Below, piece after piece: positions 7,385-18,932 of a stretch of 44,674 bases of DNA (positions are counted from its first letter, which is position 1; each line of letters opens with the position of its first letter). This DNA comes from Singulisphaera sp. GP187 (lineage in GTDB: Bacteria > Planctomycetota > Phycisphaerae > Phycisphaerales > SM1A02): positions 1 through 44,674 of the forward strand of contig CAMBMO010000019.1 of NCBI GenBank assembly GCA_945868805.1, read 5' to 3'. A program made the position numbers and the translations under genes. Under the pieces are notes generated by a model. It had not been told where the DNA came from and made no database searches. It was given only the letters and a program-made list of their open reading frames with translations.

Positions 7385-9877
7385 TCAGTTCGGGCAGGCG
7401 CCCCAACCGCTGAGCAAGGTGGTGAGATCGGCACCATTGGTGTTGTTGTCTCCAGTGATGTCGCCACCTGGCGTACCCCATGCCGAGAGCAGGGTCGTGA
7501 GATCCGCACCGTTGCGAATGCCGTCGCCGTTGTAATCACCTAGACATGGTGGCGCACTGCAAGCGGCAGCGTTGTCACCATTGAGGCGCACAATCCAGTG
7601 AGCGAGGAAGGTTCCGCCAGCAGATTCGGTGAGCACGAAGTTGTTCACACCGATTCCGCAACCAGGAGCCGACCAGTAGGTATTCGACGAGGTCGTTCCG
7701 GCGGGGGTATTACCCGCAGCGCGAAGACCGTAACCGCTCGCCGCTGGAACACCAGCACCCAAGCCACCATAGAGATCTGGCGTATCCAAGATGACAACAA
7801 GGTTGTACGCCGCATCTTCTTCCACGCAGATCGGCTGGGCGAAGTTCAATGTGGCTAGATAGACACCACCAGCAATCTGAATGTCCTGCCTGATGATCTC
7901 TTCGAGGTCATATCCATCGGCGCCACCGTCAGCCGTGTACCACCGAGGTGCACCGCCATCGAGATCGCGATAGATACCAATCGAAGCTGGCAGCGGAATG
8001 TCGCTGTAAAAATTTGCACAGACGGCGCCGTTAATGGCACGCTTGACCGCGAAGACGCCAAAGTCCAAGCAACTGATGTCGCCCGAGACCATTCCAGCTG
8101 GGAAGACTCGTGCGTAATCATCGCCGACCGTTCCACCACCACTGCAGTTTGGAGCTGCGGGATTGACTCCGCAAGCAACCAATCCCTGGGTGACCGTAAT
8201 GGGCGCGGGATCGGAATTGTTGGTGTTTGGGCCAGGAGCAACGCATACACCCGGAATCACTCCGCTTCCGGAGACGAGAATCGGGCACGACGCTGGAGCG
8301 CCACTCACCGCAAGTGTGTAGTCGTTGAAGGTTCCGCTCCCGCATGGGTTACCCGCGAAGAGTTGCTCGCCAACGAACACATAATAGGTTCCTGGGTTCA
8401 GGCACGCTGTCGCAACGCCTGGGCAAGCACCAGTTCCGATACCGAGCACGCTGACCGCTGCGCAACCTGGAACCGTAATGTCGCCACCGAGGATAAGAAC
8501 CGTCGAAAGGCGAGCAGACCTGATCGTCGCAGTGACCTGCGTGGCCGACGCCACAGTGATCTGATAGAAGTCGGTGTCGCGCGTGTCGGCATCGGCCCAG
8601 AAGGTTCCAGCGATCGATGATCCCAGTGTGATCGTCTCGAATTCACCAGCGCCGTTGCAACCGTCGTTGAAGGCAGATCCACAGCTTTCGCCTTCGGTTC
8701 CACCAGCGGTGCCGATATCGCAAGGTTCAGGGAGATCCACAGTCATCGATCCCGCGCCCGTCTCACCATTAAGGTACGAACCCATTCGGATCAGGTACGT
8801 GTGACCCATTTGCACTGCGGCGGTCATCGCCGAGGCGTATGGAGTCGTGCCATCCGTCAAGTAGCAGTTTCCGCCAGCACCGTCGTCGTTGCAAGCAACC
8901 ACTGCCGCCTGCAAACCGTTGTAATCGAATGACCCTGGATCTGTTCCGAGGTCGTACACGCCAGTCTTGTTGTCGAATGGCGATGTTCCGCATGTCGAGA
9001 GGATGAGCGACCCGTTGGCACTCACGACGACCTTGTACCAAACATCGTTGAAGAAGTCGGGAACGCCCGATGCGCACGCTGACGCATGGTCAGGACCATC
9101 TTCGGTCGCGCCGACATTGCTCCAGCTGACCGTGCTATCGACATTCGGGATCGAAGTCGGGCTCGTTGCGCAATCGTTGGCAGGAGCACCAGCGACAGCC
9201 GGGCAGGAGTAGTAACCGCAACTCGCGATGGCGAGTTCGACGCATGTTGCGTCCCAGCCGAGTTCGCAGCAGAGCGGATTCAGTTGGCAAATAGCCGAGC
9301 AACATACAAGATTGTTGCAGCCGTAACCGCCGTGCGCGACATTGCATGCGCCGGTGGCACCGATGCATCCTGCAACGCCCTCGGTCAAAGTGACAAGCAA
9401 TGTTCCGGTACCCACATCGCCTTCGTAGCCTCCGATGCGGACATAGAACACATCGCCTGCGGAGCAGTTCAGGTTGCTCACGAGCGAGTAGTACTGCTGG
9501 CATCCAGCGAGTCCGGTTCCATCGCCATTGCAAGCGACGAGATTCGTGCAGCTGTTCTGATAGATCGCTATCGACGTGTCGTACGACGCACTATTACAGG
9601 TTGAAAAAGTCGCTTGACCAATCGAGGTCGCTGTGAACTTAAACCAGACATCATTTTGGGTCTCGAGCCAGTTCAGAAATGTTCCAGCGCAGAGAGCATC
9701 CCCAGGGATGTTCGCGCTTGGAGTGGCGCCTGTCGTACTAAACGCTGCTGGAACTCCAGCGGTGGCGGTCAGGGCAGTGGCGCACTCGTCTTGTGCGTAG
9801 GCGCCAGTTGCGATGACGGTCGTCGCAAGCGCAACAGCCTTAAGTGAAGACCAACAACAAAAGTTTCGAGTACGCAT
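7385..9877 (-). CDS. Secreted Cys-rich protein with C-terminal dockerin-like repeats (paralogue B)
   Basis: Exported protein of about 830 aa, function unknown. The ATG at 9877-9875 has a good ribosome site (AGGAG about 8 nt upstream) and starts a signal peptide (SLKAVALATTVIATGAYA, likely cut before QDE). Segments such as NDVWFKFTATSIGQATFSTC and NDVWYKVVVSANGSLILSTC look like repeated PPC-like beta domains. A Cys-rich block at about 178-220 (CNVAHGGYGCNNLVCC, NPLCCELGWDATC) parallels the one in paralogue A. The C-terminus has two dockerin/EF-hand-like units (GDYNGDGIRNGADLTTLLSA and DITGDNNTNGADLTTLLSGW) ending GACPN, nearly identical to paralogue A. It is longer by one or two beta domains. 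The pair shares terminator and candidate promoter sequences. Adhesion, matrix binding or an S-layer/envelope role are possible, but nothing in the sequence decides between them. Confidence 0.88.
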   Translation of the reverse strand: MRTRNFCCWSSLKAVALATTVIATGAYAQDECATALTATAGVPAAFSTTGATPSANIPGDALCAGTFLNWLETQNDVWFKFTATSIGQATFSTCNSASYDTSIAIYQNSCTNLVACNGDGTGLAGCQQYYSLVSNLNCSAGDVFYVRIGGYEGDVGTGTLLVTLTEGVAGCIGATGACNVAHGGYGCNNLVCCSAICQLNPLCCELGWDATCVELAIASCGYYSCPAVAGAPANDCATSPTSIPNVDSTVSWSNVGATEDGPDHASACASGVPDFFNDVWYKVVVSANGSLILSTCGTSPFDNKTGVYDLGTDPGSFDYNGLQAAVVACNDDGAGGNCYLTDGTTPYASAMTAAVQMGHTYLIRMGSYLNGETGAGSMTVDLPEPCDIGTAGGTEGESCGSAFNDGCNGAGEFETITLGSSIAGTFWADADTRDTDFYQITVASATQVTATIRSARLSTVLILGGDITVPGCAAVSVLGIGTGACPGVATACLNPGTYYVFVGEQLFAGNPCGSGTFNDYTLAVSGAPASCPILVSGSGVIPGVCVAPGPNTNNSDPAPITVTQGLVACGVNPAAPNCSGGGTVGDDYARVFPAGMVSGDISCLDFGVFAVKRAINGAVCANFYSDIPLPASIGIYRDLDGGAPRWYTADGGADGYDLEEIIRQDIQIAGGVYLATLNFAQPICVEEDAAYNLVVILDTPDLYGGLGAGVPAASGYGLRAAGNTPAGTTSSNTYWSAPGCGIGVNNFVLTESAGGTFLAHWIVRLNGDNAAACSAPPCLGDYNGDGIRNGADLTTLLSAWGTPGGDITGDNNTNGADLTTLLSGWGACPN

Positions 9878-10008
9878 TTTTGATTCTCCTGAGTGAGCGT
9901 TTGACTGAACGATTTTTGAGTGAACGAAGGTTTGCAATCCAAATACCGTCTGCGATGCCGAGTTTCGAGGTGGTAACATTCCACCCACGCCCCCAAGGCA
10001 TCGTTTAG

Positions 10009-11151: not shown

Positions 11152-12291
11152 ATGCGCAAGCTTCATCTTCTCGCACATTTGGTCGTTGTAGTGTGCTTCG
11201 TCGCCACCGCCACAACCGATGCGTACGCACAGAAGGCAACGATTATCGCAGACCCCGAGTCGATCGAGCTTGGGTTCATCGAACCGAGGTCCACCGTCAC
11301 GAAGACCTTTCGATTGGCCAATACCTCGCACGTGCCCGTCACGATCGCGACCGCGACCGCGACTTGCACATGCACGACAATCGATGCGGTTGGCAAGGTG
11401 ATCCCGGCTCAGGGAAGCCTGGAGATCCCGATGACAATGAAAGTCGCGGCATCGACTGGCGTGAAGACCGCCGCGGTGACATTCACTTATTCAGATCGAA
11501 GCGCACCCACGACCCTGCGCATGAGTGGCGAGATTTCCTATCCAGTGCGGGCGTCTGCCGTGGATGTAATCGCAGGTGCTCGAGCTCCATACCTCAACCT
11601 ATTCGACGACCCATCGCGGCCCAAGGACATTCCGCCTCCGCCGACCGCGGGGACGATTCGAGTCGCGTCAACTGATCGACAACCATTTCGTGTCCTCTCG
11701 GTCATGAATGCCCCGCCGAACTTCGCAGGATTCGATCCAGCCAAGGATCCGCCCGGAAACTCCTACGAAATCGTCTTCGATTTCTCGGCAGTGCCTTGCG
11801 CCCAAATGCCTCCTTATATGGTGATTGAAACGGATCACCCACTCGCGCCAGTCGTCGACCTTCGGATTCGGCATATGTGCACCAAGATCGCTCCTCAGAT
11901 TCCATTCGCCGAGTACCGCGCGAATCTCGGAGCGTTGACGACGGGGGTCGCTCACCCCTTCGATTTCGAACTGAAAAAGTCCACTGGCTGGCGCGTTGTT
12001 CAAACAACTTCCAAAGATCCACGATTGACTGTCAAATTGATGGACCAGCGTTCGGATAGTGACCACGCGATGGTTTCAATGGCCATCGTCGTCGACCCGT
12101 CGGTTCATGGAGTCGTGCTTGCCCCGGTCACCATGGTCGCAACCGACCCATCTGGCACGGTGAAGTCGAGCGATTTTTGGGTCTATTTCACGACACATAC
12201 GCAGGCGACCGCGAAACCAGTCGCGATCCCGATCGTGGTGCCGATCGTGGTGCCGACCGTGGTGCCGACCGCAATCTCGCAACCCCGCTAA
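11152..12291 (+). CDS. Exported DUF1573-domain protein
   Basis: Exported protein of 379 aa. The ATG at 11152 is followed by a clear signal peptide (MRKLHLLAHLVVVVCFVATA, cleavage after DAYA). Upstream codons in the same frame only run antisense through the oxidoreductase gene and are not used. The N-terminal ~100 residues match DUF1573, an Ig/ASH-like domain: IELGFIEPRSTVTKTFRLAN, then VTIATATATCTCTTIDA and IPAQGSLEIPMTMKV. DUF1573 proteins are abundant in Planctomycetota and Bacteroidota; their role is unknown. A second beta region follows (PYMVIETDHPLAPVVDLRIR). The tail is a low-complexity PIVVPIVVPTVVPTA coded by a 12-bp tandem repeat. The stop codon overlaps the malic enzyme stop on the other strand. 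No strong ribosome site was seen. Confidence 0.85.
   Translation: MRKLHLLAHLVVVVCFVATATTDAYAQKATIIADPESIELGFIEPRSTVTKTFRLANTSHVPVTIATATATCTCTTIDAVGKVIPAQGSLEIPMTMKVAASTGVKTAAVTFTYSDRSAPTTLRMSGEISYPVRASAVDVIAGARAPYLNLFDDPSRPKDIPPPPTAGTIRVASTDRQPFRVLSVMNAPPNFAGFDPAKDPPGNSYEIVFDFSAVPCAQMPPYMVIETDHPLAPVVDLRIRHMCTKIAPQIPFAEYRANLGALTTGVAHPFDFELKKSTGWRVVQTTSKDPRLTVKLMDQRSDSDHAMVSMAIVVDPSVHGVVLAPVTMVATDPSGTVKSSDFWVYFTTHTQATAKPVAIPIVVPIVVPTVVPTAISQPR
12229..12276 (+). repeat. 12-bp tandem repeat in the DUF1573 gene tail
   Basis: Units CCGATCGTGGTG at 12229-12240 and 12241-12252, CCGACCGTGGTG at 12253-12264 and a degenerate fourth copy at 12265-12276. It encodes PIVV/PIVV/PTVV/PTAI, a Pro-Val-rich C-terminal tail. 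The unit length keeps the frame, so copy number can vary without breaking the protein. Confidence 0.85.
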
Positions 12292-13958
12292 AAGCTCGGA
12301 TCGTAAACATGCCCGCGGACGAATTCCGCGATGTCATGAGGTGGTGGTACCCGTGCAAGACCTCGATCGAATATGAGACGAGTGACTGCGATCGCGACCT
12401 CGATACTGGTCTCGTAAATTGAAGAGATTGGCGGGTAGATCAAACCAACGGAAAGATCCTGATCTGTCGTCTGCGACGCGAGTGACTCGGCCGCGCGCAG
12501 GAACATTTCATCGGTGACTCGATTGGCTTCGGTTGCGTAAACAGCAAGTCCGACAGCCGGATAGATGTAGACATTGTTCCCCTGTCCTGGGACAAAAAGT
12601 TTTCCGCCGAAGTGGAGTGGTGGGAACGGACTGCCAGTCGCGACGATTGCGCGACCCTCAGACCATCGAATCGCCTCTTCGGCAGTGCACTCGGATTTGG
12701 ATGTCGGATTCGAAAGCGGAAAGATAATCGGGCGCGCATTGAGTCTCGCCATCGATCGGATCACGGACTCGTTAAACGCGTGGGCAACTGTTGATACTCC
12801 GATGATCGCGGTTGGACGAATGGCCTCCACGACATCCGACAATCGAGTGAGCGGTGAGTCTGGACCCGAGTGGGCGCCCGCAGGAAACTTGAGCCCCGAG
12901 ACATCGTGAGCGAATCGGGTCAAGTAATCGGGAAGTTTGGGCATTCCGGCATGGACCAATCCACGCGAATTGACAAACCAGCACCGATCGACTGCCGCCG
13001 ACTCTGGCACTCCATCGCCGCAGAGCTGTTTGACGAAGAGGTCTGCGATGCCAACCGCCGCGCTTCCAGCGCCCATGAAGAGAAGTCTTTGATCGCTCAT
13101 CTTTGTACAACTCAATCGACACGCGCCGAAGAGCCCCGCGACTGCGACAGATGCCGTGCCTTGGATATCGTCGTTGAAGCAACAGACCTTGTTGCGGTAT
13201 CGCTCTAAGAGTGGAATCGCATTCTTGTTTGTGAAGTCTTCGAACTGGATGCAGCACCGCGGAAAGACTTCCTGCACTGCCGCTACGAATTCATCGATGA
13301 ACGCGTAGCACTCGTCGCCAACGATGCGAGGGATGCGCAGGCCTGGATAAAGAGGATCGCGTAGAAACGCTTCGTTGTTCGTCCCAAGGTCCAACACGAC
13401 CGGGAGTGCGACTTGGGGCGGAACGCCGGCGCACGCTGTGTAGAGGGCGAGCTTTCCGATGGGAATGCCGATTCCGCAAACTCCCTGATCTCCGAGCCCA
13501 AGAATGCGCTCGCCATCCGTCACGACAATGAAGCGCACATCCTTTTCGGGCCAGTTTCTGAGAGTCTCTGCGAGTCGCCCCTTCCGACGGATCGACAAGT
13601 ACATGCCCTTGGGGCGCCGCATGATGTGCCCGAACTTCTGGCACGCCTCGCCGACGGTCGGCGTGTAGACAATTGGCATGTAACGCTGAAAATCACTTCG
13701 GAGCAGGGCGTAGAAGAGTCGCTCCTGTCGATCCTGAAGCGCCGACAGAAACTGGTACTTGCCGATATCAGACGACTGCTGTTCGAATTGAAGTCGAGCA
13801 CGGTCGAGCTGGACACCCATCGGCTCGACTCCATCGGGCATGAGCCCAACGAGCCCCAGTTCCTCGCGCTCCAATTCGGTGAACGCGCCACCCTTGTTCA
13901 AGCGCGTGTCCAAAAGGATCTGCGTTGCGGATGGAGAGTCGTTCCTTGAGCTGCTCAT
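12288..13958 (-). CDS. maeA: NAD(P)-dependent malic enzyme (decarboxylating)
   Basis: Oxidative decarboxylation of L-malate to pyruvate and CO2 in the cytosol; links the TCA cycle to pyruvate. It is 556 aa, the length of the large (MaeA/eukaryotic-type) subfamily. The ATG at 13958-13956 starts MSSSRNDSPSATQILLDTRL; the frame stays open further upstream, but only antisense to the epimerase gene. Diagnostic segments are YTPTVGEACQKFGHIMRRPK, the metal-binding FEDFTNKNAIPLLERY, CCFNDDIQGTASVAVAGLFG, and the dinucleotide fold LFMGAGSAAVGIADLFVKQL. ATGSPFPPLHFGGKLFVPGQ and NNVYIYPAVGLAVYA are the conserved C-terminal parts. Whether NAD or NADP is preferred cannot be read with certainty. The stop codon TAG (12290-12288) shares two bases with the convergent DUF1573 stop. 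It is divergent from the epimerase operon across a 90-bp gap. Confidence 0.95.
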   Translation of the reverse strand: MSSSRNDSPSATQILLDTRLNKGGAFTELEREELGLVGLMPDGVEPMGVQLDRARLQFEQQSSDIGKYQFLSALQDRQERLFYALLRSDFQRYMPIVYTPTVGEACQKFGHIMRRPKGMYLSIRRKGRLAETLRNWPEKDVRFIVVTDGERILGLGDQGVCGIGIPIGKLALYTACAGVPPQVALPVVLDLGTNNEAFLRDPLYPGLRIPRIVGDECYAFIDEFVAAVQEVFPRCCIQFEDFTNKNAIPLLERYRNKVCCFNDDIQGTASVAVAGLFGACRLSCTKMSDQRLLFMGAGSAAVGIADLFVKQLCGDGVPESAAVDRCWFVNSRGLVHAGMPKLPDYLTRFAHDVSGLKFPAGAHSGPDSPLTRLSDVVEAIRPTAIIGVSTVAHAFNESVIRSMARLNARPIIFPLSNPTSKSECTAEEAIRWSEGRAIVATGSPFPPLHFGGKLFVPGQGNNVYIYPAVGLAVYATEANRVTDEMFLRAAESLASQTTDQDLSVGLIYPPISSIYETSIEVAIAVTRLIFDRGLARVPPPHDIAEFVRGHVYDPSF

Positions 13959-14048: not shown

Positions 14049-14996
14049 ATGTTGCGAGTCCATGCGATCGACAGTCATACCGAAGGCGAACCGACGCGCG
14101 TGATCATCTCGGGCGGACCAGACTTGGGAATCGGACCGCTTCGTGAGAGGCGCGAACGATTCGCGCGCGGGCACGACGGCTTTAGGCGAATGACCATCGA
14201 GGAGCCCCGAGGATCGGATGTACTCGTCGGCGCACTGATTGTCGAACCTCACGAGCCCAACTGCGTCGCTGGAGTGATCTTCTTCAACAATGCAGGCTTT
14301 CTCGGAATGTGTGGGCATGGAACGATCGGCGTCGCAAAGACGCTTGCTCATCTCGGCCGAATTCAGAATGGGACGCATCGACTCGATACACCGGTTGGGG
14401 TGATCGAGTTTACGATTCGATCCGATGAGATCGTTGAAGTCGCAAGTGTTCCCGCGCGGCGATCGCGCAAGGGAGTCACAGTCGATGTCAAGGGGTTCGG
14501 CGAAGTCGTAGGCGATGTCGCTTGGGGTGGCAACTGGTTCTTCCTGACGACCGCGCCCGCGCGAGTGCCACTCGATCGAAGTCGTGCGGCCGAACTCGTC
14601 AACCACGCAAGTGCCGTCCGCCGCGCGCTCGCGAAGGCTGGGATTGTTGGCGACGATGGATCTGAGATCGATCATGTCGAATTCACCGCCCCAGCGCGCC
14701 GACGTGATTGTGCGTGGAGGAACTTCGTGCTCTGTCCTGGTGGCATGTACGACCGTTCTCCTTGCGGCACTGGGACGAGCGCGAAGATTGCGTGCCTCGC
14801 CGCAGATGATGCGCTCAAGCCGGGCGAACATGTCGGCGCAGAGAGTTTCATCGGAACTCGTTTCGAGGCGTGGTACGCCTTGAACAGAGAGGGAGCGATC
14901 ATGCCGACCATTTGCGGCCGCGCTTGGATTACGGCGGAGTTGGACTTGCTCGTCGACGAGTCTGATCCTTGTGCAGAAGGAATCATCGACCGATGA
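14049..14996 (+). CDS. Proline racemase family protein, probable 4-hydroxyproline 2-epimerase
   Basis: Likely interconverts trans-4-hydroxy-L-proline and cis-4-hydroxy-D-proline, the first step of bacterial hydroxyproline catabolism. It is 315 aa, normal for the family. The start MLRVHAIDSHTEGEPTRVII is the standard N-terminus. Both catalytic Cys residues are present: Cys88 in MCGHGTIG and Cys239 in DRSPCGTGTSAKIA. This argues for a two-base racemase or epimerase and against the trans-3-hydroxyproline dehydratase branch, where the second Cys is Thr. Context supports epimerase: the next gene, overlapping by 4 nt (ATGA), is a DapA-family protein like the Pyr4H2C deaminase that acts downstream. 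The required D-amino-acid oxidase and alpha-ketoglutarate semialdehyde dehydrogenase are not in the window. Proline racemase remains possible. Confidence 0.88.
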   Translation: MLRVHAIDSHTEGEPTRVIISGGPDLGIGPLRERRERFARGHDGFRRMTIEEPRGSDVLVGALIVEPHEPNCVAGVIFFNNAGFLGMCGHGTIGVAKTLAHLGRIQNGTHRLDTPVGVIEFTIRSDEIVEVASVPARRSRKGVTVDVKGFGEVVGDVAWGGNWFFLTTAPARVPLDRSRAAELVNHASAVRRALAKAGIVGDDGSEIDHVEFTAPARRRDCAWRNFVLCPGGMYDRSPCGTGTSAKIACLAADDALKPGEHVGAESFIGTRFEAWYALNREGAIMPTICGRAWITAELDLLVDESDPCAEGIIDR

Positions 14997-16012
14997 ACTG
15001 TTCCACTCCACTGCGCTGGTCAGGAGTGATGCCAGCGATCACGACACCACTTGCAAGTTCGGGCGAGGTCGACTTTGACGGCGCAGCTTCCCACGCGCAG
15101 TGGATGATCGACCAAGGATGTGATGGAGTGGTCGTGGGTGGTTCGCTCGGTGAGGGCCAGTCGCTCTGCACAGAGGAAAAGTGCGAACTCTGGCGACGCA
15201 TTTCCTCACAGCTTCGTGACCACGCGCCGGTGATTGCGGCGATTGGGTCGGCGTCGACTCGTGAAGGTTGCTCGCTTGCAACGCGCGCCGAGGAATCGGG
15301 GTGCAATGCACTCATGATCTTGCCCCCGTATGTGCACAGTGGAGACGAAAGAGAGGCACTCCGCCATGTCGAAACGATTGCGCGCGCGACGAATCTGCCC
15401 GCGATGATTTATAACAATCCGACCGCCTACCGCGCCGACTTTTCGGCGCAGTCGCTCGCGGCACTCGCGTCGCGACTTCCCAATGTTCGCGCAGTGAAGG
15501 ACTCGACCGGCGATGCCCGCAGAATCGCGCAACTTGTTGAACTCGTCCAACGCGGTGACGCGCCAAGCGAACTCGTCGTTTTCGTTGGGCTCGATGACAT
15601 CGTTCCCGAAGGAGTCGCCGCAGGTGCACAAGGATGGGTCGCGGGACTTGCAAATGCTCTGCCCGTCGCGAGTGTCGCCCTGTGGAAACTCGCCAAAGAG
15701 CAACGGAGAAGTTCGCCATCCGAACCATTCGCGCAACCGCTTCATGGGAAGGTGTCGGCAGAGGAAGTGAACAGCGCCTTCTTGCAACTCCTTCGTATGG
15801 ACACACTCCCTGACTTCGTCCAGCGCATCAAGTTCGTTCAATCTCTCTTCGGGCATGGCAGCGAACAGGTGCGCCCGCCTCGCCTGCCACTCGGTTCAGG
15901 CGAGCGCGACGAGTGCGTATTGGAAACCCGCACCGCGATCCGCGCGCTTGAAAGACTCGGGATTCCAACGACCGCCATGGTTTCGAACGATCTCGGGGTT
16001 TCGTCTCAATGA
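14993..16012 (+). CDS. DapA/NAL-family Schiff-base lyase, possible pyrroline-4-hydroxy-2-carboxylate deaminase
   Basis: Class I aldolase-superfamily TIM-barrel protein, 339 aa. The ATG at 14993 overlaps the epimerase stop by 4 nt; an in-frame upstream start would only extend into that gene. Catalytic features are Tyr140 in LPAMIYNNPTAYRADF and the Schiff-base Lys169 in NVRAVKDSTGDA. GGSLGEGQSLCTEEK (about 49-63) replaces the GTTGE(S/A)xTL phosphate/carboxylate loop of DapA with a related sequence. Next to an epimerase the best guess is the deaminase that converts Pyr4H2C to alpha-ketoglutarate semialdehyde, but dihydrodipicolinate synthase-like or keto-acid aldolase activity cannot be excluded. 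The C-terminal ~40 residues (RPPRLPLGSGERDECVLETR) are typical of the longer subfamily. Its TGA overlaps the ATG of the SprT-like gene. Confidence 0.88.
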   Translation: MNCSTPLRWSGVMPAITTPLASSGEVDFDGAASHAQWMIDQGCDGVVVGGSLGEGQSLCTEEKCELWRRISSQLRDHAPVIAAIGSASTREGCSLATRAEESGCNALMILPPYVHSGDEREALRHVETIARATNLPAMIYNNPTAYRADFSAQSLAALASRLPNVRAVKDSTGDARRIAQLVELVQRGDAPSELVVFVGLDDIVPEGVAAGAQGWVAGLANALPVASVALWKLAKEQRRSSPSEPFAQPLHGKVSAEEVNSAFLQLLRMDTLPDFVQRIKFVQSLFGHGSEQVRPPRLPLGSGERDECVLETRTAIRALERLGIPTTAMVSNDLGVSSQ

Positions 16013-16461
16013 ATTCCAACCCTCGCGTATGGCCTCCGGAACTTTCGTCCACGCTCCAGGACGACCTTCGGAAATGGTGCTTTCTCTGGCAGGTCTCGGA
16101 ATTGCTCCCAGAGATTTCAGTTTCGATCAGTCGTCGAATGACTTCGAGCCTCGGCCGAGCGAGCTACCGCCGCAAGCATGTCGGACTCCAGCACACATTG
16201 CTCGATCCTTCTGCAGCAGAGCTTCTGCGCGAAGTTCTCTGCCACGAGGTGGCGCACCTTGCGGCGTATGAACTTCACGGCACGACGATTCGACCGCACG
16301 GACGAGAGTGGCGCGCGCTCCTCATCGCGGCCGGCTACCCCGCTCGAGCGACAATCGAGGCGGCGACTCTGCCAACGTGTTTCGGAGTTCGCACGACCCG
16401 AAGGAGACGACGAGTTCGCCACAGTCCGTGGAAGGCGATCGCGCGCTGGATTCGGGGATAG
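16009..16461 (+). CDS. SprT-like zinc metalloprotein
   Basis: Small soluble protein of 150 aa with a SprT-like metallopeptidase domain. The motif HEVAHLAAYELHG (about 79-91) supplies the HExxH zinc ligands and catalytic Glu. The PHGREWRALLIAAGY segment (about 97-111) supplies the third His and the Trp/Leu pattern seen in SprT and the Spartan/SPRTN family. No signal peptide is visible, so it should be cytosolic. A basic tail (RTTRRRRRVRHSPWKAIARW) could contact nucleic acid. The ATG overlaps the preceding TGA (ATGA, 16009-16012), making it the third coupled gene of the hydroxyproline-type operon. Known relatives of SPRTN cleave DNA-protein crosslinks; most bacterial SprT-like proteins are uncharacterised. 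A role in peptide breakdown is an alternative. Confidence 0.85.
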   Translation: MNSNPRVWPPELSSTLQDDLRKWCFLWQVSELLPEISVSISRRMTSSLGRASYRRKHVGLQHTLLDPSAAELLREVLCHEVAHLAAYELHGTTIRPHGREWRALLIAAGYPARATIEAATLPTCFGVRTTRRRRRVRHSPWKAIARWIRG

Positions 16462-16488: not shown

Positions 16489-18537
16489 CTACTTCATCAC
16501 TCCAGCCATCCGTTGTTCATGAAACGTTGCATCGCGTTCGCGCCCGACGATTCGCAGTGCCTGAGCGAGCATGACGCCGGATCGGTACCAGTTGCTCTGA
16601 CGTGCAAACTGAGGCGCGATCCCGACCGGTACTTCCATTTCGTTGAACGCGCGCTCGTGAAGCGACACATTGCTCGCGGCGTCGTTTCGCTGTGCGAGCA
16701 GCTTCGACGCCTCTTGAAGCGCGACGATTGCGAACGGACCATCGTTGGCATAGCGACTCAGGATCATCTCGTAGCAACGCCCAGCCGCGACGGGATTGCC
16801 CTGCGCCTTGTAGAGGTCGGCCTGCTGAAGGAGGATCTGCCCGGCGAGATCGCCACGATCACTAAAAAGAGAAAGCGCCCCATCGAGAGCCTCCTGCCGT
16901 GCGGAAATGTCGCTGATGGAATCGATCATCGGGGCAATCGTGCGTAGAGCAAACTCGGGATATGAATCCGCGCACAATGTCAGGATGTCCGATGACCACT
17001 GTTGTTTCTGTTCGGTCGACATCGCGCCACTGCCAGCGGCACGACCGATGAGTTCCCAGGAACGTGCATCTGTTAAGCATGCCTTCACGGCAACATGAGT
17101 GAGTGCGAGAACTTTCTCGATCGTCTCCGCCGAGACTGAAGATACGGCGTTGGCATTGGATGGACTGCCACCGGTGGACCCTTGGATCGGCTGGAGCAGA
17201 CGTGACGCCGCGATACGCAGTGCGGCTGAAATGAGTCGATCTTCGATCGGCTCAAGTCCATAGTTCAGCACCATCGGCATTTGTGTGCTCGAGATTTGAG
17301 ATCCAGTTTGCGGGTCGCGGATGAACCCTTCGACGCTCTGATAGCCGCCAAAGCGTCCGATTTCGTCCCAGGATGGTCCACGCGGGTACTTGCCGACAAA
17401 TCCAATCCATGCATGAGCGAGCACGCCGTCGGTGGCGGTCGTGTAGACGCATGGAACGCCAATCGACTTTCCGACCGTCGTCGCGAAGTACGCCTGATCC
17501 GCGCAAATTCCGCCGTAAAGCAATATGTTCGCAAGATTCCATCCCGCAGCGGTCACCTTCTTCGGTCTCCCTTTTTCAAGGTGATCGAAGTCGTATTCAA
17601 TCTCGTCGTACAGCAGGCCAACAGTTCGATTCCCCGCGTACTTGCGGAGCGCCCAATTCATTTCATCGCTCGTCGCCGCCACATCGACCACATAGATGAG
17701 TAACTCGGGCGCGATGCCTCTGATTCCGAAGAGCATTTTCTTTTCGCCCGCCAAAAAGTGATCGAATGTCGCGAGTGGTCCACACCCCTGCGCAAGATTT
17801 TCGTTGACCTGCACAACGACTGGTGCGTCGTTGACAACCGCAATCGCGGCGGCGAGCTCTGGGAATCGCTCGACGAACTCGCTTCGCTCCGTCATCACCA
17901 ATCTTGCGATTCGAAGCACTCGGGCGAGATCTTCTCGCTGTGGATCGACGACGAGCGCGAGGGTCCGCGCGAAGATCGGGTGCGCGAGAAACTCCCGGGC
18001 GACCGCACCTCGCTCGGATTCCGGAGCGGCGACGATGATTCTCGATAACTGCCAAGCGGCGGCGGTCTGCGCTAATCTCGCGAGGATCGGCTTCGACGCT
18101 GACGAGATCATCTCCGATTTCGTTGCCGACTTTGGTGCCGACTTTGGTGACGATTTCGTTGCCGGTTTGGAAGCGCGTCGCGCTTGCTTGGGAGTCGAAT
18201 CTTTCCCATGGGACGTGACCGACCACGTCGCGAGAAAGTCACTCGCGTCTGCGTCGAGTCGCTCCCCGCATTCGGTTGAGACCTTCAATCCATCGGCTGT
18301 TCCTGATGCGACCGACGCGATGCCGGTCTCGCCCGCTTCGCCGAAGAGAGTTCGAAAATCATCGGTCGATGGACGACCGGTGTCACGAGCGACGGGGCCG
18401 CTCTTCTGGGGTGCCACCGGAGGGCTACTCGCGGGCAACTGCGCGCCGGCAACGCCCGCCAGCGTTCCAATCACTCCAGCCGACGCCAGCAGAGCCGAAC
18501 ATTCCGAACCACGGAACGATCGAGGCTTGCGGCTCAC
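16489..18537 (-). CDS. Exported transglutaminase-like protein with helical C-terminus
   Basis: Probably periplasmic, 682 aa, function unknown. The GTG at 18537-18535 was chosen because it overlaps the upstream lipoprotein stop as GTGA and starts a good signal peptide (VSRKPRSFRGSECSALLASA, cut near GVAGA/Q). A KS-rich linker at about 124-143 (KSSPKSAPKSATKSE) is coded by 12-bp repeats. The region 340-385 carries a transglutaminase/protease-like core: Cys345 in LLYGGICADQAYFATTVGKS and His375 in VLAHAWIGFVG. The third residue of a Cys-His-Asp triad is not certain. From about 440 onward the protein is alpha-helical and TPR-like (GDLAGQILLQQADLYKAQGN, PVAAGRCYEMILSRYANDGP). Cross-linking, amidase, peptidase or a non-catalytic role are all possible. 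Confidence 0.8.
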   Translation of the reverse strand: MSRKPRSFRGSECSALLASAGVIGTLAGVAGAQLPASSPPVAPQKSGPVARDTGRPSTDDFRTLFGEAGETGIASVASGTADGLKVSTECGERLDADASDFLATWSVTSHGKDSTPKQARRASKPATKSSPKSAPKSATKSEMISSASKPILARLAQTAAAWQLSRIIVAAPESERGAVAREFLAHPIFARTLALVVDPQREDLARVLRIARLVMTERSEFVERFPELAAAIAVVNDAPVVVQVNENLAQGCGPLATFDHFLAGEKKMLFGIRGIAPELLIYVVDVAATSDEMNWALRKYAGNRTVGLLYDEIEYDFDHLEKGRPKKVTAAGWNLANILLYGGICADQAYFATTVGKSIGVPCVYTTATDGVLAHAWIGFVGKYPRGPSWDEIGRFGGYQSVEGFIRDPQTGSQISSTQMPMVLNYGLEPIEDRLISAALRIAASRLLQPIQGSTGGSPSNANAVSSVSAETIEKVLALTHVAVKACLTDARSWELIGRAAGSGAMSTEQKQQWSSDILTLCADSYPEFALRTIAPMIDSISDISARQEALDGALSLFSDRGDLAGQILLQQADLYKAQGNPVAAGRCYEMILSRYANDGPFAIVALQEASKLLAQRNDAASNVSLHERAFNEMEVPVGIAPQFARQSNWYRSGVMLAQALRIVGRERDATFHEQRMAGVMK
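18121..18168 (-). repeat. Four 12-bp repeats coding the Lys-Ser-rich linker
   Basis: On the plus strand the units are CGTTGCCGACTT, TGGTGCCGACTT, TGGTGACGATTT and CGTTGCCGGTTT. On the minus strand they encode PATK, SSPK, SAPK and SATK, a flexible positively charged spacer after the signal-peptide region of the transglutaminase-like protein. Confidence 0.75.
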
Positions 18538-18932
18538 TTTTGCTCCCGCACCCACGCTTGCGCCATCATCAACCGCCGATCAACGCATGTGTCAAATGGA
18601 TCCGCGGTTCGCATATTCACACCCTCGATTTCAAAGGTGTAATGCCCAGGCTCTTCTGGGCAGATTGACGACCCGAACTGGTATCTCATCGTCCCGCGCG
18701 ACGCGACAAACGAGCAGCGACCCACGATCGTCTCGGATTCTTTGAGATCCACGACAAAGATTCCTGTCTCTGTGAATTCGAGGAGCACGCCACTCTCAAC
18801 GCCACGCCAGCGCCCGACGATGCTCTGGGGGACTTGCGGCGATGGGATGCTCTTGCAACCAGTCCCAACCATGGCGAGCAATCCCACGAGAACAAGCGTC
18901 TGTCCGACCCGAGTGCGTGACCAGTAACTCAT
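18534..18932 (-). CDS. Small putative lipoprotein, lipocalin-like beta protein
   Basis: 132 aa, exported. The ATG at 18932-18930 gives MSYWSRTRVGQTLVLVGLLA followed by MVGTGCKS, a signal peptide with a plausible but imperfect lipobox (Cys about residue 26). The mature part (SIVGRWRGVESGVLLEFTET, GIFVVDLKESETIVGRCSFV, RGTMRYQFGSSICPEEPGHY) alternates strand-like segments. It resembles small lipocalin-like proteins that begin IxGxWxG. Two Cys in the mature chain could pair. The stop overlaps the GTG of the transglutaminase-like gene, so the two are translated together and may work together at the envelope. No specific function is recognised. Confidence 0.75.
   Translation of the reverse strand: MSYWSRTRVGQTLVLVGLLAMVGTGCKSIPSPQVPQSIVGRWRGVESGVLLEFTETGIFVVDLKESETIVGRCSFVASRGTMRYQFGSSICPEEPGHYTFEIEGVNMRTADPFDTCVDRRLMMAQAWVREQK

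Follow-up and report, generated by a model that had tools for sequence, protein, structure and literature searches.

The three overlapping genes at positions 14049-16461 of the window, by which we mean the whole 44,674-nucleotide stretch analysed, very probably encode a two-enzyme hydroxyproline pair and an independent, conserved SprT protease that probably shares the transcript by position only. Because relatives without the pair keep sprT at the same spot, the genes most likely lie together as neighbours and do not form a working unit. The draft genome has 2.5 Mb in 47 contigs, the window being its contig C19; the genes of the site are listed below.

12288..13958, minus strand: malic enzyme gene, divergent left neighbour (start at 13958 inferred)
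14049..14996, plus strand: 4-hydroxyproline 2-epimerase-type enzyme of the proline racemase superfamily, 315 aa, with Cys88, His90, Asp235 and Cys239
14993..16012, plus strand: DHDPS-superfamily lyase, most likely Pyr4H2C deaminase, 339 aa, with Tyr140, Lys169 and a GSLGE motif
16009..16461, plus strand: SprT-like metalloprotease, 150 aa, with H79-E80-x-x-H83, H97 and a basic C-terminal tail
16489..18555, minus strand: convergent gene of unassigned function, 688 aa, right neighbour of sprT

The open reading frames of the trio (14049-14996, 14993-16012 and 16009-16461) share an ATGA at both junctions, at 14993-14996 and 16009-16012, which confirms the double overlap described in the original prediction; these start/stop overlaps suggest that co-translation is likely. 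For the lyase, ATG 14993 was taken as the start, giving the 339-aa product; the mechanical open reading frame begins upstream at TTG 14969. Since a further ATGA junction is present at 2841-2844 of the same window, this type of overlap is nothing special here. Judged by its position, sprT is probably on the epimerase/lyase transcript. The inferred malic enzyme start and the epimerase start are separated by 90 nt, and the end of the 688-aa gene is 27 nt from sprT. Scans for promoters (0 promoter-like sites versus 0.5 expected) and terminators (2 terminator-like sites versus 2.4 expected) were uninformative. No Pfam family above cut-off was found for the 688-aa protein. Elsewhere in the window, the minus-strand gene at 7385-9988 encodes a big, secreted-looking protein with two GD-N-type repeats at its end, as recognized by eye; homologs occur in G042 and in G108 (57% identical).

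The SprT gene was found in all 19 genus genomes searched, this genome included. A window-type dapA was present in nine of the 19, each time directly upstream of sprT, and the order epimerase, dapA, sprT was the same in 9/9. A tenth dapA match in the genus, in G110 at 33%, is part of a separate gene set. The trio was also found in G043, a member of another genus, where it was read across two contig ends. The recurrence of the trio in these 10 genomes rules out a chance arrangement of one genome, and sprT does not sit elsewhere in all relatives. The epimerase/dapA junction is an ATGA in all nine genus trio genomes and in 9/10 with G043 counted, where start and stop share a single base. The dapA/sprT junction is an ATGA in seven of the nine (8/10 with G043); the genes are separated by 11 nt in G111 and by 13 nt in G107. 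Since the trio starts overlap or lie close together in 10 genomes, one of them from another genus, some selection on the arrangement may be at work.

In the ten genus genomes that lack the pair, sprT was found at the same site. The 688-aa gene, convergent with sprT in the window, flanks it in all ten, and adjoins it in 19/19 genus genomes overall. The malic enzyme directly adjoins sprT in nine of the ten; in these nine the distance from the malic match to the sprT start is less than 60 nt, and a search for remnants of the pair gave no epimerase or dapA match between the two. The tenth, G108, has no malic match at sprT, which has a DUF1573-type gene on one side and the 688-aa gene on the other; the DUF1573-type gene of the window, located beyond the malic enzyme, shares 46.7% identity with that of G108. 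This pattern, in which SprT is present in 19/19 genomes and the pair in 9/19, with the site kept without the pair, supports the suggestion in the original prediction that the SprT-like gene may do no more than share the transcript. The malic enzyme (12288-13958, minus strand) neighbours the epimerase or sprT in several genera: outside the genus, it adjoins sprT without the pair in G001, G046 and G015, and in g17, g18 and g45 it adjoins the epimerase at sites where sprT gave no match. The order and strand of the pair around the malic enzyme vary among the g17, g18 and g45 genomes.

How such a distribution may have arisen was addressed with gene trees. In the malic enzyme tree of 30 rows, from which G070 (contig ends) and G108 (no malic match) are absent, the pair-less genomes G091, G102 and G104 group with the trio genomes G105 and G107 at a support of 93/98. 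The epimerase tree of the trio genomes places G043 outside, G105 with G107, and G000 (this genome) beside the rest, which is the main branching of the malic tree. When the malic enzyme, SprT and the 688-aa protein were combined in one tree with G043 as the root, Dollo parsimony required the pair to be lost three times; Fitch parsimony on the same tree gave three changes and left the root state undecided, so it is the shared site and gene order that favour loss over gain. Support in this joint tree is weak (46.7/53) for where G043 and the clade of G042, G108, G109 and G110 belong, and because of this weak deep branch two losses are possible. The distribution is thus best explained by loss of the pair two or three times with the protease kept, a direction of change that we infer. 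Under this reading, the ancestor that the genus shares with some relatives would already have carried sprT at this site, next to the malic enzyme. Most simply, the malic enzyme, the pair and sprT would all have been present at one ancestral site, and descendants would then have lost either sprT or the pair. The history deeper than the genus is less clear because the order and strand of the pair around the malic enzyme differ in g45 and g18.

At a wider scale, the number of genomes with both the epimerase and SprT is close to that expected by chance. Among 101 family genomes, the epimerase was detected in 38 (E <= 1e-20) and SprT in 14 (E <= 1e-4); six genomes (G000, G070, G043, G017, G078 and G096) have both, as compared with 5.3 expected if the two were independent, figures that serve as a description and not as a test, since related genomes do not sample the family independently. 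With the Pfam model, SprT was found in 17 family genomes at E <= 0.001, and the same six carried the epimerase. Of 83 named SprT loci 80 were retained, many of them apparently from the same genomes as the genus set and some on short contigs, and the pair was nearby in eight of the 80. Seven of the eight show the full genus arrangement; in the eighth the contig begins just before the epimerase. Labels of the named records with the closest SprT genes include Planctomycetia, Singulisphaera sp. and Phycisphaerales, and several have Baikal in the isolate name.

The third gene product matched the SprT-like family (PF10263) with an E value of 2.2e-18 and 66.5 bits versus a cut-off of 25.6. The HExxH residues H79, E80 and H83, together with H97, are invariant in 23/23 aligned homologs. 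The best profile match among solved structures was Spartan 6mdx (E 2.2e-5). The predicted model is confident (mean pLDDT 89.3), and a Foldseek search with the predicted fold again returned 6mdx on top (E 8.5e-4); VIA-align gave a Z of 10.8 and an rmsd of 2.9 over 105 residues. An archaeal selecase, one of the archaeal minimal metalloproteases, was tied with Spartan at a VIA Z of 10.5. The predicted fold is that of a minimal Spartan-like metalloprotease. Like SprT and Spartan (SPRTN), the protein has the HExxH and a third His; in contrast to them, it is only 150 aa long and its sequence lacks a CxxC pair and hence shows no zinc ribbon. The C-terminus reads as basic. The score against the SprT equivalog PRK04860 was 44.5 bits and did not reach the cut-off of 175. 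Nine genome pairs were compared for dN/dS, of which one was saturated and one was without dS; the seven usable pairs gave values of about 0.01 to 0.25, and sprT is therefore a real gene under purifying selection. Most likely the protein would act as a small independent metalloprotease that clips damaged or DNA-bound proteins.

The first gene product matched Pro_racemase (PF05544) with an E value of 3.4e-90 and 302.8 bits over positions 2-324 of 325, so the superfamily domain is full-length. The best of the nine NCBIfam models listed for it was NF052296, a 4-hydroxyproline epimerase, at 415.2 bits, 35 bits under the cut-off of 450. A second 4-hydroxyproline epimerase model followed at 371.9 bits, and the proline racemase model scored 185.0; both top models are thus 4-hydroxyproline epimerases, each below its cut-off, which for an NCBIfam equivalog is a naming threshold. 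The protein also gave a full-length match of 334 bits to PDB 4j9w, an entry that, like 4j9x, we take to be the 4-hydroxyproline 2-epimerase Q4KGU2. Its catalytic pair is Cys88 and Cys239, with His90 and Asp235. For the tested 4HypE Q4KGU2, PMC4113996 reports Cys88, Cys236, His90 and Asp232; the window enzyme is likewise of the Cys/Cys type, with fitting residue numbers and His90/Asp spacing. The same paper describes trans-3-hydroxyproline dehydratases as Cys/Thr and some tested 4HypEs as Ser/Cys. Among 38 aligned epimerase rows, the window's own included, the first position is Cys in 38/38 and the second is Cys in 36/38. The remaining two, from G086 and G032, have Thr at the second place, the trans-3-hydroxyproline dehydratase pattern, and no dapA match was found near the epimerase-family gene in either neighbourhood. 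By these sequence comparisons, the first gene product appears closest to 4-hydroxyproline epimerases, and 4-hydroxyproline would be its substrate.

The lyase matched the DHDPS family (PF00701) with an E value of 1.2e-48 and 165.7 bits. In this family a Lys residue forms the Schiff base and a Tyr is catalytic; K169 and Y140 are invariant in all 14 aligned sequences. The genome holds two DHDPS-family proteins. The one on contig C2 matches the family better (266.2 bits), is 24.6% identical to the window lyase, and carries the motif GTTGE where the window lyase has GSLGE together with YNNP. The window lyase is distinct from the housekeeping-type DapA of the genome. GSLGE and YNNP are also found in the lyase of the separate gene set in G110. 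When the lyase profile was compared with solved structures, in which deaminase entries are not labelled, entries named DapA scored slightly above all others, at 161.9 bits versus 150.3 for the next kind (2hmc); profile scoring of this sort does not discriminate the identity of the lyase. The window lyase resembles Pyr4H2C deaminase and the DHDPS superfamily in having Lys169 and Tyr140 and in adjoining an epimerase, and differs in not being nearest to any single solved deaminase by profile score. Taken together, it is most likely a Pyr4H2C deaminase.

A dapA-type gene is within about 3.3 kb of the epimerase in 26 of 30 family neighbourhoods, the window included; this count leaves out 8 of the 38 epimerase genomes at that neighbourhood size, and in four of these eight a dapA-type gene was present in the shorter loci. 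The neighbourhood study in PMC4113996 links 4HypE neighbourhoods to DHDPS-family, D-amino-acid-oxidase and aldehyde dehydrogenase partners. The proposal of an epimerase plus a DapA-family deaminase for 4-hydroxyproline use fits these data, namely Cys88/Cys239, the top NCBIfam models (below cut-offs) and the frequent dapA-type neighbour, and the pair is probably an ordinary, functional 4-hydroxyproline module. In this module, the epimerase would convert trans-4-hydroxy-L-proline to cis-4-hydroxy-D-proline and the lyase would convert the oxidised product, Pyr4H2C, to alpha-ketoglutarate semialdehyde, with the oxidation and the final dehydrogenation carried out by enzymes encoded elsewhere in the genome.

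No oxidase or dehydrogenase gene was found beside the pair in the window. In several genera, as seen at L061 7435-8985 and in relatives, a divergent aldehyde dehydrogenase adjoins the epimerase/deaminase pair. A search for this pair-adjacent dehydrogenase in 12 genomes gave a match in five and no match at E <= 1e-20 in G000 (this genome), G070 and G043. This genome has ten aldehyde dehydrogenase matches; since the relatives' dehydrogenase was not found here, the step would be carried out by another of the ten, or is missing. A DadA-like D-amino acid dehydrogenase on C8, under the cut-off of its model, is no more than a candidate for a missing step. An FAD oxidoreductase on C28 and the adjacent aldehyde dehydrogenase were rejected as the missing steps, the dehydrogenase passing the cut-off of a methylmalonate-semialdehyde model. 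Separately, G110 carries at L145 1013-8571 two FAD-type oxidoreductases (a DAO, and a Pyr_redox_2 with a BFD-like iron-sulfur domain), a DHDPS-family lyase, a Cys/Cys epimerase, an aldehyde dehydrogenase and a divergent periplasmic binding protein. This is a fuller hydroxyproline-type set, located on another contig than the G110 sprT, and the contig is possibly foreign to the bin.

Other readings of the site were weighed against these observations. The pair would belong to a different pathway if the lyase had a function other than Pyr4H2C deamination or if proline or some other imino acid were the epimerase substrate, as could be argued from profile scores that do not separate the lyase from DapA, from an epimerase under the NCBIfam cut-offs, and from the lack of adjoining oxidase and dehydrogenase genes. 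We consider this unlikely, as the 4-hydroxyproline epimerase models outscore the proline racemase model by 415.2 and 371.9 to 185.0 bits, a separate DapA-type protein is present on C2, the window lyase has GSLGE and YNNP in common with the lyase of the hydroxyproline-type set of G110, and DHDPS partners are tied to 4HypE in PMC4113996.

For the protease, a role in freeing hydroxyproline from imported peptides to feed the epimerase and the deaminase would agree with the four-base dapA/sprT overlap in 8/10 trio genomes. However, SprT is present in 10/19 genus genomes without the window-type pair, 32 of the 38 epimerase-bearing family genomes have no SprT match at E <= 1e-4, co-occurrence is at chance level, and the predicted fold is that of a minimal Spartan-like metalloprotease. 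The processing of hydroxyproline-containing peptides suggested in the original prediction therefore found no support and was rejected, the presence of SprT being independent of the pair; of the readings considered it is the least credible. Protection against the alpha-ketoglutarate semialdehyde from the deaminase, by degrading proteins that it crosslinks to DNA, is in keeping with the Spartan-like predicted fold, with the listing of aldehydes among the causes of DNA-protein crosslinks in the abstract of PMC9240642, and with the absence of a match to the relatives' adjacent aldehyde dehydrogenase in the three of ten trio genomes searched (G000, G070 and G043). The presence pattern speaks against such a role, with SprT kept without the pair and most pair-bearing relatives without SprT. 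Moreover, G025 has the pair and neither SprT nor a match to that dehydrogenase, so this lack is not special to the trio genomes, and this genome has its ten aldehyde dehydrogenase matches. We regard an aldehyde-protective role as very unlikely, and more doubtful still is the recruitment of a Spartan-like protease, in this lineage, to a hydroxyproline operon in which it would clear DNA-protein crosslinks caused by the aldehyde intermediate. Searches of the open literature found no paper joining SprT-like, hydroxyproline and operon, and none on hydroxyproline with Phycisphaer and freshwater.

A hydroxyproline pair with an independent SprT protease as its neighbour thus remains the preferred reading. 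It documents in a planctomycete-related genus a 4-hydroxyproline-type epimerase/deaminase pair, substrates being those suggested above, together with a short Spartan-like protease. More generally, it illustrates that a row of overlapping genes can carry an unrelated partner: the overlaps suggest co-translation, yet the comparison of 19 genomes shows that the third gene is kept alone.
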